DNA from: Methanocorpusculum sp.
Lineage (GTDB): Archaea > Halobacteriota > Methanomicrobia > Methanomicrobiales > Methanocorpusculaceae
Length of the DNA stretch: 10,715 bases
Assembly: GCA_017622255.1 (NCBI GenBank)
Contig: JAGARL010000226.1
Location: 1-10,715, forward strand
Direction of reading: 5' to 3'
Shown here: piece by piece, positions 4,946-10,715 of the stretch
Layout: each line of letters starts with the position of its first letter
Position numbering within the stretch: position 1 is the first letter of the stretch
The notes under the pieces: model-generated
Told to the model about the DNA's origin: nothing
Seen by the model: only the letters and a program-made list of their open reading frames with translations
Database searches by the model: none
Program-made: the position numbers and the translations under genes

Positions 4946-6187
4946 TTACTGTTCGCCGAAGACATTCTCGAAGATCATGTCAGAGCCGGTTGCATTAAGT
5001 CTTGCACGCTCGTCTGCCTCTTCTGCGAATGCAAGGACTGGGAGTTCCATGTCCTGACCTGGGGTGTGGCCGAACATCTTCTCAAGCTCAACCTGCTGTG
5101 CGTGCATGAAGAGAGAGTTTTCGATGTTCATTGGACAGACATCGGAACACTGACCGCAGTTGACACAGGAGTCTGCGATGTGTGCGAAGCGAATCATCTG
5201 GAACATGAAGTCCGGCGGGAGGATTCCCGGCTTAACTAAGTGCGGCTTCTTGGTGGAACACTCGACACAGTAGCAGATCGGACATGCTTCGATACAGCCG
5301 TAGCACTTGATACAGCGGGAGGTCTCTGCCATGATGTACTGGAGACGCTCAGTTCCCTCTCCAAGAGCTCCGAACTGTTCATCCTGTCCCTTCTTACCCC
5401 TGTTAATCATGGTCTTCTCAATCTTTGCGCGGATTTCGAGTCCTTTTGCTTCCGGTGCGCAGGTCTCAATAACGCCTGCCTTTACTGCACCGTCAAAGAC
5501 TGCTGCACCCTTCTCGGAGCAGACTTCAACAAAGGTTGCCTTTCCTGCCTTGTCTCCCATGACACCCCAGTTTCCGCAGACAATGTCACACTGTCTTGGA
5601 ATCTTGGTCTCACAGCGCTGGCAGTTCTTTCTGCGTCCAAGGCCTTCTTCCTCAAGCTCATCAATCTTGATGCCCTTGTGTTCGCCGTCCTTGGTGATGA
5701 CAATGAACTGTCCCTTGTCGATTTCTTCCTTTACGACATCGTTCGGGTTGATACCGTACTTCTCGGCAATCATCTTGCGTGCAACGGTCGGACTGACGGA
5801 ACCTCCGCAGTTGAGACCAATCATAACGATGTTGTCCATGTTAATCTGGTTGCGCTTTGCAAGTTCGTACATTGCCTTTGCATCGCATCCCTTGCAGGTG
5901 ACTGCAATCTTCATGTCGCGTGCGCCGTCAAGGTACTTCTTGATGAGCTTTGGAAGAAGCAGGGTTCCGCAGTGGAGGGAACCTGCAGACTTTGCTAAGT
6001 CAGCAGAGTCAGTGATAACGACCGGGGTTGGGTCGTAGAGATCCTGTCCCTTCTGGACAGTTAATACTGCATCGACAACCTTCTCGTCAAGCAGGTACTT
6101 CAGGATAGAGGTAACAGCTCCTCCGCATTCTCCCTGAATTCCGTCGACTTTTGTCCATGCATAGAACATATCGCCTTTTGCAGACAT
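4946..6187 (-). CDS. fdhB: F420-dependent formate dehydrogenase beta subunit
   Basis: This 413-residue protein belongs to the FrhB/FdhB family. It carries electrons between the molybdopterin subunit and coenzyme F420 or heterodisulfide reductase through FAD and iron-sulfur clusters. The N terminus has the Q-G-E-CGGAV motif (18-25) typical of F420-reducing beta subunits. C98/C101, and the group C189, C192, C200 and C204 (NCQRCETKIPRQCDIVCGNWG), match the internal cluster region. Two ferredoxin-type [4Fe-4S] motifs follow: C292, C295, C298 and C302, then C341, C344, C347 and C351. Start: ATG at 6187 with GGAGG in the last codons of fdhA. The gene begins 2 bases after the fdhA stop, so the pair is an operon. 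Length fits methanogen FdhB. Confidence 0.93.
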   Translation of the reverse strand: MSAKGDMFYAWTKVDGIQGECGGAVTSILKYLLDEKVVDAVLTVQKGQDLYDPTPVVITDSADLAKSAGSLHCGTLLLPKLIKKYLDGARDMKIAVTCKGCDAKAMYELAKRNQINMDNIVMIGLNCGGSVSPTVARKMIAEKYGINPNDVVKEEIDKGQFIVITKDGEHKGIKIDELEEEGLGRRKNCQRCETKIPRQCDIVCGNWGVMGDKAGKATFVEVCSEKGAAVFDGAVKAGVIETCAPEAKGLEIRAKIEKTMINRGKKGQDEQFGALGEGTERLQYIMAETSRCIKCYGCIEACPICYCVECSTKKPHLVKPGILPPDFMFQMIRFAHIADSCVNCGQCSDVCPMNIENSLFMHAQQVELEKMFGHTPGQDMELPVLAFAEEADERARLNATGSDMIFENVFGEQ

Positions 6188-6189
6188 TT

Positions 6190-8262
6190 TTAGTTGCCTC
6201 CCTCAATCTTGGTGACTTTGATTGCACATGCCTTGAACTCCGGAATCTTACAGACCGGGTCGAGTGCATTGTGAGTCAGGTTGTTTGCCGGGCACTCGAT
6301 GAAGTGGAACGGCATGAACATGGTTCCCTTGCGGATGGTCGGGGTAACTCTTGCCTTGACCTGGATAGTGTCACGGCGGGTGGTTGCGTTGACGAGTTCA
6401 CCGTCGACGATACCGAGTTCTTTTGCATCCTCTTCGTTGATTTCAATCCATCCGGTCGGAACCTCGTGGTCGAGGGTTTCACTGCGGCGGGTCATAGTTC
6501 CGGTGTGCCAGTGGAAGAGACAGCGTCCGGTGGTGAAGACGTACGGGTACTCCTCATCCGGAACCTCTGCCGGCTCCTGCCATTCTGCCGGGAAGAAGAC
6601 ACCAAGTCCGTCTGCGGTTAAGAACTTCTCTTTGTGGAGAATCGGGGTTCCCGGGTCCTCTGCAGTCTTGCACGGCCAGTGGAGTCCGTCCGGACCTTCG
6701 AGTCTCTCGTAGTTCATACCTGCGTACTGCGGGGTAAGTGCTGCCATCTCGTCGAAGACTTCAGAGTAGGATTCCCACTTGAACTGCTCTTCGTAGCCCA
6801 TGGCTGCTGCAATCTTTGCGATGATTCTCCAGTCGTCGATTGCCTGTCCCGGTGCTTCCTGTGCCTTTCTCCAGCGCTGGACACGGCGTTCGGTGTTGGT
6901 CTGGGTTCCGTCGCGCTCTGCGTAGCAGACTGCCGGAAGGACAACATTTGCGTATTCACAGGTCTCGTTTAAGAAGATATCCTGGACAACAACGAACTCG
7001 AGGTTCTCGAATGCGTGCTTGACGTGGTTTAAGTCCGGGTCGGAGAGAAGCGGGTTTTCTCCCATGATGTACATACACTTGAGTTCTCCCGGGTTGTCGC
7101 AGAGAACGTTCATCATGACAGTGACTTCGTATCCGTTCTGCATCGGTGCAATTCCGTCCGGGAATGCCCATGCTTCTTCGAACTTCTTGTGTGCTGCTTC
7201 GTCGGTAACCTTCTGGTATCCGGAGAAGTTGACCGGGAGTGCTCCCATATCACATGCACCCTGAACATTGTTCTGACCACGGAGCGGGTTAACACCGCAT
7301 CCCGGCTTTCCAAGGTTTCCGGTAAGCATCTGGAGGTTTGCACATGCGTGAACGTTATCAACACCAACAGTGTGCTGGGTGATACCCATGGAGTAGATTA
7401 ATGCACATCCGCCGGAGTTTGCAATCCAGTCTGCTGCAGTGTGGATGTCTTCTGCTTTCAGGCCGGTAATCTTTGCAACGTTCTCGAGAGAGTACTTGTC
7501 CTGCATGACAAGTTCCTTGAGTTCTTCGTATCCCTTGGTACGCTTCTCAACGAACTCCTTGTCTTCCCATCCGTTTAAGATGATGTCGTGCATTAAACCG
7601 TTTAAGAGTGCGACATCAGTTCCGGAGTTGAACTGGAGGAAGAGATCTGCCGGACTGCCGGTGATGGTTCTGCGCGGGTCTGCGTAGATGTACTTTGCAC
7701 CGTTCTTCTTTGCCATAACCTCGCGGCGTCCGATTAACGGGTGCTGCTCGAAGGTGTTGGATCCAATGATGAAGATACACTTTGCTTCGGCAATGTCTGG
7801 AATGCTGTTGGTCATTGCACCGGATCCAAAGGAACCTGCAAGACCTGCAACAGTGGAAGAGTGACAGAGACGTGCACAGTGGTCAATGTGGTTGGTCTTG
7901 AAAACACCACGGGCGAACTTCATCATTGCATAGTTGTCTTCGTTGGAGACACGTGCAGAAGAGAGACAGCAGCGCTCGGACGGCTGGTACTTCTTGAAGT
8001 TCTCTGCGATGTAGGCAATTGCCTCATCCCAGGATGCCTCGACAAGTACTCCGTCTTTTCTGATGAGCGGAGTGGTTAAACGGTCCGGAGAGTTAACGAA
8101 CTCGTGGGCGTAGTTGCCCTTCGGACAAAGTTTACCTTCGTTGACTGGGGAGCGGGTGTATGGAGCAGTGTCCACGACTTTTCCGTCCTTGACAACAAGG
8201 TTAAAGGAACAACCTGAACCGCAGTACGGGCAGGTGCTCTGAACATACTTTAAATCAGCCAT
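6190..8262 (-). CDS. fdhA: formate dehydrogenase alpha subunit (molybdopterin, Cys-type)
   Basis: This 690-residue catalytic subunit oxidises formate to CO2 at a Mo (or W) bis-MGD centre in the cytoplasm. C11, C14, C18 and C46 form the N-terminal [4Fe-4S] site (CPYCGSGC ... CPKG). C133-H134 in ARLCHSSTVAG is the catalytic pair, with Cys where E. coli FdhF has selenocysteine. Molybdopterin-binding signatures include IIGSNTFEQHP and the GRCLFHWHTGTMTRRS region near the C-terminal MGD-binding domain. I chose the ATG at 8262 (MADLKYVQST) because it puts the cluster at the usual distance from the N terminus and has GAGG 10 bases upstream. The longer in-frame start at 8316 would add 18 atypical residues across the promoter region. 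fdhB follows 2 bases after the stop. In related methanogens the product also docks on Hdr-MvhD. Confidence 0.94.
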   Translation of the reverse strand: MADLKYVQSTCPYCGSGCSFNLVVKDGKVVDTAPYTRSPVNEGKLCPKGNYAHEFVNSPDRLTTPLIRKDGVLVEASWDEAIAYIAENFKKYQPSERCCLSSARVSNEDNYAMMKFARGVFKTNHIDHCARLCHSSTVAGLAGSFGSGAMTNSIPDIAEAKCIFIIGSNTFEQHPLIGRREVMAKKNGAKYIYADPRRTITGSPADLFLQFNSGTDVALLNGLMHDIILNGWEDKEFVEKRTKGYEELKELVMQDKYSLENVAKITGLKAEDIHTAADWIANSGGCALIYSMGITQHTVGVDNVHACANLQMLTGNLGKPGCGVNPLRGQNNVQGACDMGALPVNFSGYQKVTDEAAHKKFEEAWAFPDGIAPMQNGYEVTVMMNVLCDNPGELKCMYIMGENPLLSDPDLNHVKHAFENLEFVVVQDIFLNETCEYANVVLPAVCYAERDGTQTNTERRVQRWRKAQEAPGQAIDDWRIIAKIAAAMGYEEQFKWESYSEVFDEMAALTPQYAGMNYERLEGPDGLHWPCKTAEDPGTPILHKEKFLTADGLGVFFPAEWQEPAEVPDEEYPYVFTTGRCLFHWHTGTMTRRSETLDHEVPTGWIEINEEDAKELGIVDGELVNATTRRDTIQVKARVTPTIRKGTMFMPFHFIECPANNLTHNALDPVCKIPEFKACAIKVTKIEGGN

Positions 8263-8276: not shown

Positions 8277-8320
8277 GTATACATTTAGGTTTGAATTGGG
8301 CTATATTAACCTTCACTCAA

Positions 8321-8332: not shown

Positions 8333-8340
8333 ATTAGATA

Positions 8341-8382
8341 ATCAACTGGTGTAAATTAACATCATTGCGAAAATCAGTTGGT
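8341..8382. promoter_or_regulatory. paired operator-like elements upstream of fdhA
   Basis: ATCAACTGGT (8341-8350) and ATCAGTTGGT (8373-8382) are two imperfect palindromes 32 bp apart, about three helical turns. They share the core with elements at 8762-8771 and 10475-10484. The near element is centred about 19 bp upstream of the candidate fdhA TATA box. That position fits a site that helps or blocks TFB/TBP loading. The identity of the binding protein is not known. Confidence 0.55.
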
Positions 8383-8400
8383 AATATGACATATTGTTGT

Positions 8401-8413
8401 CAAATCAGATTTG
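8401..8413. repeat. perfect palindrome CAAATC-A-GATTTG
   Basis: 6-bp arms around a single base lie about 140 bp upstream of the fdhA start, next to TGACA-N6-TGTCA at 8387-8402. This is a possible further regulatory site; function unknown. Confidence 0.4.
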
Positions 8414-8499
8414 TTAACTATATGTGCCTACAGGTATTTTTTCTGCACTTTTCAGAGAATGTCCATATCGCGCACTTTTGATTAAAAACGGTGGGTATT

Positions 8500-8682
8500 T
8501 TATTCAAAACACCCGAACTGGCATTTTTTGAATTTGATACCGGTCTTGTCACAGAACTCACAGAACGCCACCATATCAAACTGGTAGATTCTGCAAAGAG
8601 CTGTGGCCTCTGCACAGGTTATTGCTCCTCTGATTTCTGACGCATCGAGGACTTTTTGAAACATCTCTTCTGATTTTTCCAT
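8500..8682 (-). CDS. 60-residue Cys-rich conserved protein of unknown function
   Basis: The product has six cysteines in 60 residues: C23, C30, C41, C44, C54 and C58. The C-terminal part (ITCAEATALC ... CEFCDKTGIKFKKCQFGCF) resembles a family of small uncharacterised proteins I recall ending in a CQ-x-GCF motif. In that family an 'I-x-C-A-x-A' stretch is followed by a helix-turn-helix-like segment. I cannot name it or confirm its function. CxxC plus a terminal CxxxC suggests metal binding. It is transcribed toward fdhA but is separated from it by 237 bases containing a promoter. Start: the ATG at 8682 gives a compact family-like length. GAGG lies 14 bases upstream, rather far, and a TATA-like box about 28 bases upstream suggests a leaderless message. 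A longer frame up to 8799 would run across the divergent promoter and is unlikely. Confidence 0.72.
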   Translation of the reverse strand: MEKSEEMFQKVLDASEIRGAITCAEATALCRIYQFDMVAFCEFCDKTGIKFKKCQFGCFE

Positions 8683-8705
8683 GAGTATCGTATTAACCTC
8701 TGATG

Positions 8706-8714
8706 ATATTAATT
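8706..8714 (-). promoter_or_regulatory. candidate promoter of the Cys-rich small protein gene
   Basis: The minus strand reads AATTAATAT, centred about 28 bases before the ATG at 8682. That is the distance expected for a leaderless archaeal transcript. A C5AC5 tract lies directly upstream. Confidence 0.45.
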
Positions 8715-8739
8715 TGGGGGTGGGGGTTTTATTTTGATA

Positions 8740-8771
8740 ATCAATTATATTAACTCTGAAAACCAATTGGT
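8740..8771. promoter_or_regulatory. paired operator-like elements in the divergent promoter region
   Basis: ATCAATTATA (8740-8749, a weak copy) and the perfect palindrome ACCAATTGGT (8762-8771) lie 22 bp apart, about two helical turns. The strong copy runs straight into the TATA-like box of the plus-strand gene (8770-8778), where TFB would contact the BRE. A bound protein should therefore block that promoter. For the minus-strand gene the pair lies upstream of the TATA box, where binding could be neutral or activating. Confidence 0.55.
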
Positions 8772-8778
8772 ATATTGT
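8770..8778 (+). promoter_or_regulatory. candidate promoter of the 73-residue protein gene
   Basis: GTATATTGT is centred about 31 bases before the ATG at 8805, so the message would have almost no leader. It abuts the ACCAATTGGT palindrome. Confidence 0.5.
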
Positions 8779-8804
8779 ATTCTCATTTAGGGGTTTCAAA
8801 ATTT

Positions 8805-9026
8805 ATGAAAACGAAAATCTACATCCGTGAAAGAAATAAGCACAGCCCGGAACAGCAGGAACCGCGCTTCCGCATCGTTGCTATCACCGGTCCGCGCTCC
8901 GAAATTAAATTCGATGCCAGTCACTTCCGCAAAAACGAACTGGAAGCAATTGTAGCTGATGTTGGTGCGGAAATTGTTCTTTTAGAACCCATGGACGAAT
9001 GCGAACACGGCCATCAGCGTCACTGA
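8805..9026 (+). CDS. 73-residue conserved methanogen protein of unknown function
   Basis: The product is MKTKIYIRER followed by a PRFRIVAITG strand segment, an HFRKNELEAI helix (40-49), and an AEIVLLEP strand (55-62). It ends in a short tail rich in acidic residues, Cys and His (DECEHGHQRH, 64-73). The compact beta-alpha-beta pattern with the RKxELE helix looks like small conserved hypothetical proteins I recall from other methanogens, but I cannot name a function. The tail could bind a metal ion, which would fit its neighbour, the molybdenum storage protein homologue. Start: the ATG at 8805 is preferred over a TTG 30 bases upstream, which lies in the TATA box. It diverges from the Cys-rich small gene and precedes the storage protein gene by 33 bases. 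Confidence 0.75.
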   Translation: MKTKIYIRERNKHSPEQQEPRFRIVAITGPRSEIKFDASHFRKNELEAIVADVGAEIVLLEPMDECEHGHQRH

Positions 9027-9030
9027 AGGT

Positions 9031-9038
9031 ATTATATT
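9031..9038 (+). promoter_or_regulatory. candidate promoter of the molybdenum storage protein homologue
   Basis: ATTATATT is centred about 26 bases before the ATG at 9060, and no Shine-Dalgarno site is present. A leaderless transcript is likely, though read-through from the preceding gene is also possible. Confidence 0.5.
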
Positions 9039-9059
9039 CTCCAAACCCCCTTATTTTTT

Positions 9060-9878
9060 ATGAAAATTACGCAGCATAAACGAAAGAGTATTCATTCCGG
9101 TCTTAAAGGAGAGACTCTCTCCCGGAGCGGTCTGCTCGCCGGACAGGATGCTATTGTCCCCAAACGTATTGCGCCTGACTTAAATATCATAAAAATCGGC
9201 GGCCACGGTGTCATCGATTACGGTGCAGCAGCCGTTCTGCCGCTGGTGGATGAAATCCGTGCTTTGGTTCCGCATCACCAGATGATGCTCATGACCGGCG
9301 GGGGGGTGCGTACCCGCCATATCTTAGACATCGGTATCGAACTTGGTATGCCGACCGGAGTTCTTGCCTCGCTTTCTGCCAAGGTCAGCGAACAGAATGC
9401 TCTCATGCTCTCAGTCATGCTTGCCGATGCCGGAGCTGAGTTCATCTCCAACACCTCGCTTCTGGATATCCCCTCCATGATGAGGATGGGTGTTCTTCCG
9501 GTTGCTGCCGGCACACCGCCGTATGGTCTCTATGAACTCCCGCCGGAGTCAGGCATTCTTCCGCAGTACCGTACCGATTCAGGAGCAGTTGTTGCCGCCG
9601 ATGTCCTTGGCGCCAAGTCCTGTATCTTAGTCAAAAACTGTGACGGTCTCTTTGATAAAAACCCGGCACTGTATGACGATGCAGAACTCATTGCCGACAT
9701 CACTGCTGCTGAACTCATCGATGCCCGGATGGAGGATATGGTCTTAGAGTTCAAAGCAGTTGAGATTCTTTCCCATGCGCGTAACCTCAAGGAAATCAAA
9801 ATCGTCAACGGCCATGTTCCGGGTGAACTCACCCGCGTACTGAATGGCGGCCGTCCGCATACTATTATCCGCAGATAA
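9060..9878 (+). CDS. molybdenum storage protein (MoSto)-like subunit, amino acid kinase fold
   Basis: This 272-residue protein matches, from memory, the MosA/MosB subunits of Azotobacter molybdenum storage protein (about 270-276 residues). Those subunits use ATP to pack molybdate or tungstate as polyoxometalate clusters inside a hexameric cage. Shared features are KIGG (45-48), the IDYGAAAVLPLVDEI segment (52-66), the glycine loop TGGGVRTRH (79-87), SEQNA (110-114), PPYGLYELPPESGILPQYRTDSG (153-175), KNCDGLF (192-198) and IVNGHVPGELTR (248-259). The fold is the aspartokinase/uridylate kinase fold, so automated labels may say 'uridylate kinase'. The MosB-like central segments make MoSto more likely. 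Only one subunit gene is here, whereas the bacterial cage has two kinds. Codon use is more relaxed than in fwd and fdh (more AAA for Lys). Its place beside a Mo/W enzyme operon supports a metal-storage role. Confidence 0.82.
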   Translation: MKITQHKRKSIHSGLKGETLSRSGLLAGQDAIVPKRIAPDLNIIKIGGHGVIDYGAAAVLPLVDEIRALVPHHQMMLMTGGGVRTRHILDIGIELGMPTGVLASLSAKVSEQNALMLSVMLADAGAEFISNTSLLDIPSMMRMGVLPVAAGTPPYGLYELPPESGILPQYRTDSGAVVAADVLGAKSCILVKNCDGLFDKNPALYDDAELIADITAAELIDARMEDMVLEFKAVEILSHARNLKEIKIVNGHVPGELTRVLNGGRPHTIIRR

Positions 9879-9893
9879 TCTGCCCTCCTTCAA

Positions 9894-9903
9894 TTTTTTA
9901 TAC
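9894..9903 (+). promoter_or_regulatory. candidate promoter of the Tfx-family gene
   Basis: TTTTTTATAC is centred about 27 bases before the GTG at 9926 and there is no Shine-Dalgarno site, as expected for a leaderless transcript. The same T-run may also end the preceding transcript. Confidence 0.5.
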
Positions 9904-9925
9904 TTCCGCTTCCAAACGATAAACT

Positions 9926-10333
9926 GTGCCCGCGCCTTCACTTCTAACAGACCGTCAGAAAATTGTCCTTCAGTACCGGCGGGAAGGCAAGACTCAGCAG
10001 GAAATCGCTGATATTCTGCAGACCAGCCGTTCCAATGTCAGTACAATTGAAAAGGCTGCTCATGAAAATATCAGAATGGCAAAGGAAGCCTTGGCTTTCA
10101 TGTACTCGCTTGATGCAACGCTTCTCTGCACTCTTGATGCAGGAGGAGACTTAAACCACGAGGCATTTCTGATTTACAAAGCAGCCAAGCAGTTCGAAAT
10201 TAAGGTTCAGTACACCGCAGGTGCTCTTATCAACCGCATCATATCGTCAGTTCCCGAAAAACTGCATGGAACAATTATCCGGGAAGACATCAATGTCTAC
10301 CTGAACGAGAACGGTATTCTCTACGTTTGTTGA
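9926..10333 (+). CDS. tfx: Tfx-family DNA-binding transcriptional regulator
   Basis: This 135-residue protein has an N-terminal basic helix-turn-helix. LTDRQKIVLQYRREGKTQQE (7-26) is followed by IADILQTSRSNVSTIEKAA (27-45), the typical Tfx pattern of an 'LT-x-RQ' start and an 'SR-x-NVS-x-IEK' recognition helix. The C-terminal half is more acidic (DLNHEAFLIY ... GTIIREDINVYL). Tfx of Methanothermobacter binds DNA at the promoter region of the molybdenum formylmethanofuran dehydrogenase operon fmdECB, so this regulator is linked to Mo enzymes in at least one methanogen. Start: the GTG at 9926 gives a family-like N terminus; no closer ATG precedes the HTH. It follows the storage protein gene by 47 bases. 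It is a candidate to bind the ATCAAYTGGT elements, but nothing in the sequence proves that. Confidence 0.85.
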   Translation: MPAPSLLTDRQKIVLQYRREGKTQQEIADILQTSRSNVSTIEKAAHENIRMAKEALAFMYSLDATLLCTLDAGGDLNHEAFLIYKAAKQFEIKVQYTAGALINRIISSVPEKLHGTIIREDINVYLNENGILYVC

Positions 10334-10362
10334 ATACATCCGCTCCCACTCCCTGGGGACGT

Positions 10363-10400
10363 AATTTTCTCTATTTCTGCATCTTTTCTGTGTATTTTAT
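10363..10400 (+). terminator. T-rich terminator region after tfx
   Basis: Several short T-runs (ATTTTCT, ATTTCT, CTTTTCT, ATTTTAT) lie 30-67 bases beyond the tfx stop. There is no clear hairpin. This is consistent with archaeal U-tract termination. Confidence 0.45.
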
Positions 10401-10474
10401 GCGTCTATGCGCTCCATAATCTTTACTGTTAAGCAAAGATTGGTTTGCCGTCACAAAGGTATCTGAGTCTACAT

Positions 10475-10536
10475 ATCAATTGGTTTTTGATATATGATTG
10501 AATTTTGTTTTATTTCATGAAAATATATCAATTGAT
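10475..10536. promoter_or_regulatory. paired operator-like elements upstream of the exported protein gene
   Basis: ATCAATTGGT (10475-10484) and ATCAATTGAT (10527-10536) lie 52 bp apart, about five helical turns. The second is the middle of a perfect 14-bp palindrome, ATATCAATTGATAT (10525-10538). The first matches the element class upstream of fdhA and between the divergent small genes. Both are upstream of the candidate TATA box at 10581-10592. Confidence 0.55.
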
Positions 10537-10580
10537 ATTTCAAATGTATTTCTGCAGGTTATCAACAAGTATGTATGTTG

Positions 10581-10650: not shown

Positions 10651-10715
10651 ATGAAGAAAGTAACTGTCGCACTCAGCGTCCTTCTTGTCCTCTTTGCAGT
10701 TGTTTTTGCTGCAGG
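10651..10715 (+). CDS. exported protein, N-terminal signal peptide only (truncated by the window)
   Basis: Only 21 complete codons are in the window: M-K-K-V-T-V, then an unbroken hydrophobic run ALSVLLVLFAVVFAA, with GG of the next codon (Gly) at the edge. This is a classic signal peptide, with two lysines followed by a hydrophobic core and small residues. If the next residue after Gly is Cys it would be a lipoprotein. The context of Mo/W enzymes, a storage protein and operator elements shared with fdhA makes a molybdate/tungstate-binding protein of an ABC transporter (ModA/WtpA) an attractive guess. Nothing visible proves it; other exported proteins begin the same way. Confidence 0.6.
   Translation, partial: MKKVTVALSVLLVLFAVVFAA

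Follow-up and report, generated by a model that had tools for sequence, protein, structure and literature searches.

What protein reads the short palindromes that recur in three intergenic regions of a Methanocorpusculum contig carrying genes for molybdenum- or tungsten-dependent (Mo/W) enzymes and for a putative storage protein? The contig (GenBank JAGARL010000226.1, assembly GCA_017622255.1) is contig C176 of genome G000, which is 1.5 Mb in size and 79% complete, and its whole length of 10,715 nucleotides is the window analyzed here. It holds fwd/fmd genes, fdhB, fdhA, genes for a 60-amino acid (60-aa) Cys-rich protein and a 73-aa protein, a gene for a protein like the storage protein MoSto, a gene for Tfx, and the start of a TupA-like gene. 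Formate dehydrogenase and formylmethanofuran dehydrogenase are the entry enzymes of methanogenesis and need Mo or W. A preliminary description of this DNA had listed six words related to ATCAAYTGGT as sites of one operator, and all six words are indeed present. Five of these palindromes are, judging from sequence, probably operators of an undescribed one-component Mo/W regulator, a winged-helix protein of ∼114 aa that is predicted to bind them.

The sites were scored with a 14-bp weight matrix built from 50 sites, all outside Methanocorpusculum. It scores at least 11 at exactly five window positions, the threshold being the score of the weakest of the five and hence post hoc. The matrix was applied to the window and selected loci, and genome-wide scans used patterns. 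The five sites are given below with the bases kept in G010, a second genome of the genus; changes called R/Y-preserving replace a purine by a purine or a pyrimidine by a pyrimidine.

8339..8352, no strand assigned: operator core proximal to fdhA, ATCAACTGGT at 8341; matrix score 11.2, the weakest of the five; 12/14 bases kept, both changes R/Y-preserving.
8371..8384, no strand assigned: operator core distal to fdhA, ATCAGTTGGT at 8373, 32 bp from the proximal core; score 15.4; 13/14 kept.
8760..8773, no strand assigned: operator core between the 60-aa and 73-aa genes, ACCAATTGGT at 8762; score 19.1; 13/14 kept.
10473..10486, no strand assigned: operator core, first of the tupA pair, ATCAATTGGT at 10475; score 18.6; 11/14 kept, 2/3 changes R/Y-preserving.
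10525..10546, no strand assigned: operator core, second of the tupA pair, ATCAATTGAT at 10527; score 20.1 over 10525-10538, and 21.6 with a two-core matrix.

These are the top five matrix positions of the window, and none of 300 simulated Markov windows equaled its k-th best score for any k from 1 to 6; by chance, ∼0.16 sites scoring at least 11 would be expected in 1,004 bp of simulated intergenic DNA. The next-best position is coding and scores 10.5, and the maximum in the fwd-fdh gap is 8.4. Across the genome, ATCAAYTGGT occurs three times, twice within the window, and ATAYCARYTGRTAT is found with at most one mismatch at five places, three of them in the window. In a separate pattern scan, the sole genome-wide match outside Mo/W genes (G000:C138:3582-3595, L327) lies, in a by-eye reading, ∼360 bp upstream of mcrB.

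The sixth word, at 8740, already called weak, did not hold up as an operator. It falls outside the 14 best matrix positions and keeps 10/14 bases in G010. The 60-aa gene has a conserved TATA-like element that this word overlaps, and G010 retains TATATTAA of the element but not the ATCAATTATA word. Because the 8740 word is unsupported, the 22-bp pair proposed with it was dropped. The other two proposed spacings stand: the 32-bp pair at fdhA and the 52-bp pair at tupA are preserved in the close relative G002 and in G010, where the tupA cores are 51 bp apart. A partial second core, CAAATG, follows the 10525 core 12 bp further on, resembling the two-core form of other genera.

The expectation that the sites would be conserved across species was borne out. 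In an alignment of G000 with G010 that covers the three gaps, 62/70 bases are unchanged in the five sites, compared with 396/598 elsewhere (the 8740 word counted separately), and 6/8 changed bases are purine to purine or pyrimidine to pyrimidine at degenerate positions. The gap between the 60-aa and 73-aa genes also holds an operator in G009, G010, G015, and G021; in G015 and G021 it contains the sole exact ATAYCARYTGRTAT match among the matches listed. With up to one mismatch, the share of listed ATAYCARYTGRTAT matches that fall in orthologous Mo/W regions is 3/5 in G000, 4/11 in G002, and 5/7 in G010. The matrix finds tupA sites in G009 (15.7), G015 (12.4), and G021 (14.5), and in the gap between moaA and a moeA-like gene (moeA by eye) it detects two sites spaced by 31 bp in G000 (C54:10444 and 10475), G002, and G010. 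In ∼60 kb of other DNA from the genus (L073, L074, L075, L245), one score of at least 11 occurs besides the two operators. An exact operator in G010 (C27:16168-16181) lies just 3′ of a mobB-like gene, with no evident target gene. Upstream of fdhA, the matrix found no site of at least 11 in G009, G015, G021, or eight regulator-less genomes, and fdhA therefore looks like a lineage-specific recruit to the regulon.

The idea of one shared palindromic operator with an Mo/W theme is supported. A fuller operator, CARYTG-RTATAY-CARYTG, is read upstream of MoSto in other genera, and with at most one mismatch it occurs in 85/231 genomes of the class versus 6 with a reversed control pattern. Forty-nine of the 75 listed places precede a MoSto match by no more than 300 bp, the distance being 48-87 bp for 46 of them. 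The 20 regions examined around 22 of the 26 remaining places include a MOT1-type molybdate transporter (PF16983), TupA-like and TupB-like genes, a second TupA-like gene in G002, and an fmd-like operon (by eye); a ∼114-aa winged-helix-like protein recurs in 11/20. In four Asgard loci (L263, L273, L287, L322), MoSto is divergent from the 73-aa gene and the regulator gene with the operator between them, present as an exact 18-mer in L273 and as exact 14-mer cores in the other three. The Asgard block is adjoined by tupBC-, ModE-, and Mop-like genes (by eye), and two Mo/W control systems may coexist there.

The candidate regulator belongs to no Pfam or NCBIfam family and has a DtxR/MntR-like fold with a DtxR-type N-terminal winged-helix domain. 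Its profile reaches DtxR-type chains in the PDB at E 0.05-0.8 only, and in the comparison for a metal-binding dimerization domain the alignments mostly stop near residue 90, with the C-terminal helices (91-112) barely covered. Searches of four regulators gave no match to DtxR-family Pfam domains at E up to 0.1, and the NCBIfam scan gave none to ModE at E up to 0.05. The gene follows tupBC in G000 (contig C54, 1632-1976), the order in G002 being tupA-tupB-tupC-regulator, and one Methanocorpusculum record encodes a protein 100% identical to that of G000. Of the 25 genus genomes, 6 have MoSto, and these same 6 and no others have the regulator. A 73-aa homolog was found by pattern in 46/80 regulator loci. 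A second regulator type, with the recognition helix MSKMTAILSEME replacing HYYVLPYFAMME, directly adjoins an operator at L199, L200, and L205 (G160, G166, G188), and at L200 it sits between the operator and an fmd-like operon; the two types may be a paralog pair sharing or dividing the regulon.

Operators placed upstream of several Mo/W genes, and conserved across species, point to a putative regulon whose targets in G000 would be fdhAB, the 60-aa gene, the 73-aa-MoSto-tfx unit, tupABC-regulator, and moaA/moeA. This agrees with the likely control, suggested at the outset, of fdhAB, of the small genes along with the storage protein gene, and of an exported protein, now recognized as TupA-like through its G002 orthologue. 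Control of fwd/fmd in G000 is not supported: no score of at least 11 turns up either within the fwd-fdh gap or ahead of the second fmd operon, which lies on C54. The genes and promoter elements concerned are as follows.

4946-6187: fdhB, downstream of fdhA.
6190..8262, minus strand: fdhA, formate dehydrogenase alpha (TIGR01591, E 2.4e-256).
8301..8310, minus strand: TATA-like element of fdhA, by eye; kept in G002 and G010; 28 bp to the nearest operator core.
8500..8682, minus strand: 60-aa Cys-rich protein, no Pfam/NCBIfam family.
8743..8753, minus strand: TATA-like element of the 60-aa gene, by eye; overlapped by the 8740 word; 6 bp from the 8760 core.
8805..9026, plus strand: 73-aa protein, no Pfam/NCBIfam family; accompanies MoSto and the regulator as a conserved partner in other genera.
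9060..9878, plus strand: MoSto-like molybdenum/tungsten storage protein, homologous to MoSto subunits (PDB beta E 3e-56, alpha E 3e-45).
9926..10333, plus strand: Tfx-family DNA-binding protein (TIGR00721 above cut-off, TFX_C).
10651..10715, plus strand: TupA-like tungstate-binding protein, start only, cut by the contig end; named from the G002 orthologue (NF041772, E 6e-61, under the curated cut-off).

Homologs of the 60-aa protein occur in 28/41 genomes searched and directly adjoin fdhA paralogs in G003, G004, G008, G012, G018, and G020 (for example, G020:C4:127894-128067, with the fdhA paralog at 128114-130093); the protein may have a role in formate dehydrogenase maturation or control.

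We infer that the winged-helix protein binds these sites, probably as one dimer per CARYTG core and its AT flanks. Paired cores, which are 12 bp apart in other genera and 31-33 or 51-52 bp apart here, would place two dimers on related faces. The putative regulon would span tupABC for uptake, the 73-aa gene and MoSto for storage, the moaA/moeA gap for cofactor synthesis, and the metal-using formate dehydrogenase as an addition in this lineage. Targets with these functions make Mo/W status the most likely signal. The 8760 core also overlaps a TATATT on its other side (by eye), and negative control of the 73-aa-MoSto-tfx unit, with the operator overlapping a TATA-like element, may be suggested with low confidence in the sign. 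At fdhA, action would come from upstream, with equally low confidence in the sign.

Three other explanations deserve attention. One is that the palindromes arose by chance in AT-rich intergenic DNA. In its favor, the bare 10-mer shows no enrichment in the window: with up to two mismatches allowed, it matches 14 times versus 10.6 expected, and 39/200 shuffles give at least 14. The matrix ranking, the phylogenetic footprint, the placement at MoSto promoters in 49 genomes, and the Asgard loci make chance extremely improbable. For the five sites as a set chance is refuted, and for the 8740 word it holds. The preliminary description favored Tfx, whose gene shares a gene run with the sites and is the divergent neighbor of fdhA in several genomes of the genus. 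In Methanothermobacter, this archaeal DNA-binding protein is linked to the genes of the Mo/W-dependent formylmethanofuran dehydrogenase and is reported to bind near the fmdECB promoter (PMC3087415). However, Tfx is present in 22/25 genus genomes, 16 of which lack MoSto and the regulator, so that its distribution does not track the operator, and it belongs to another protein family than the winged-helix protein. The fdhA upstream regions of eight Tfx genomes without MoSto and regulator all stay under 11 (maximum 10.2), and the sole exact 14-mer site among the matches listed lies ∼220 kb from tfx and fdhA in G015 and on another contig in G021. Tfx is thus a very unlikely reader of these palindromes. 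A different element, GTAAACTAA, stands upstream of fdhA in 8/13 orthologues read (L036-L040, L042, L045, L046), several of these in the tfx gap, and could be a Tfx site. In the window, GTGTAAATTAACATCA (8351-8366) sits between both fdhA cores.

The operator might also be read by another, unlinked regulator (ModE, the 60-aa protein, or the 73-aa protein), the winged-helix protein merely accompanying MoSto. Co-occurrence alone does not distinguish cause from fellow traveler, the 73-aa gene accompanies the regulator in the 46/80 loci noted above, and ModE-like genes adjoin the Asgard loci (by eye). Yet ModE (TIGR00637) is found in 0/25 genus genomes by a search that detects it in M. acetivorans and others, the predicted structure of the 73-aa protein (pLDDT 76) contains no helix-turn-helix, the operator adjoins regulator genes with no 73-aa gene noticed (L187, L199, L200), and 60-aa homologs are spread across the order. 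We consider such a regulator unlikely.

Several observations weigh against the winged-helix protein as the reader of the operator. Among regulator-bearing MoSto genomes, 63/143 are without a full operator at up to one mismatch, and G000 is one of them, its cores standing singly. A full operator occurs in 1/8 MoSto genomes without the regulator, leaving the operator-regulator link weak (Fisher p 0.025), and 4/85 operator genomes have no detected regulator. Three listed places (L195, L201, L204) are inside reading frames and look like chance, and fdhA has an operator in only 3/6 regulator-bearing genus genomes. In the genus sample, 13/25 genomes are <90% complete, and the co-occurrence counts are uncorrected for kinship.

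With the winged-helix protein as the preferred regulator, the system can be compared with known ones. ModE is a molybdate-responsive regulator whose palindromic operators control Mo/W uptake and use genes, and the new system is likewise predicted to control such genes through palindromic operators. In contrast to ModE, which was not found in the genus, the new protein matches no ModE model, has a predicted operator core of CARYTG, and is, at ∼114 aa, too short to accommodate an added Mop/TOBE domain. It differs from DtxR, IdeR, and MntR in being shorter and in its putative signal, an oxyanion metal rather than Fe or Mn. The product of the main target gene, a putative metal storage protein, is a clear homolog of bacterial MoSto, but here it is found in methanogens, often accompanied by genes for the 73-aa protein and the winged-helix regulator. 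A description of the operator or regulator was not found in the literature searched, in which subscription journals are poorly covered; both appear to be undescribed, and the assignment to Mo/W is probable. More speculatively, and with a good deal of doubt, a self-contained Mo/W block (operator, regulator, 73-aa gene, MoSto) may have moved between methanogens and Asgard archaea and replaced ModE in Methanocorpusculum and perhaps other Methanomicrobiales. Because no oxyanion-binding domain is seen in the regulator, it may read metal status through the storage system, the 73-aa protein acting as go-between for MoSto and the regulator.

These findings address an apparent gap, namely how methanogens with no detectable ModE sense and ration Mo and W. 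What they offer for testing in culturable species is a candidate operator with its regulator family and regulon, together with the conserved 73-aa partner. From the sequences compared, the regulator seems to coordinate the uptake, storage, and use of Mo/W in methane-making archaea and some of their distant relatives.
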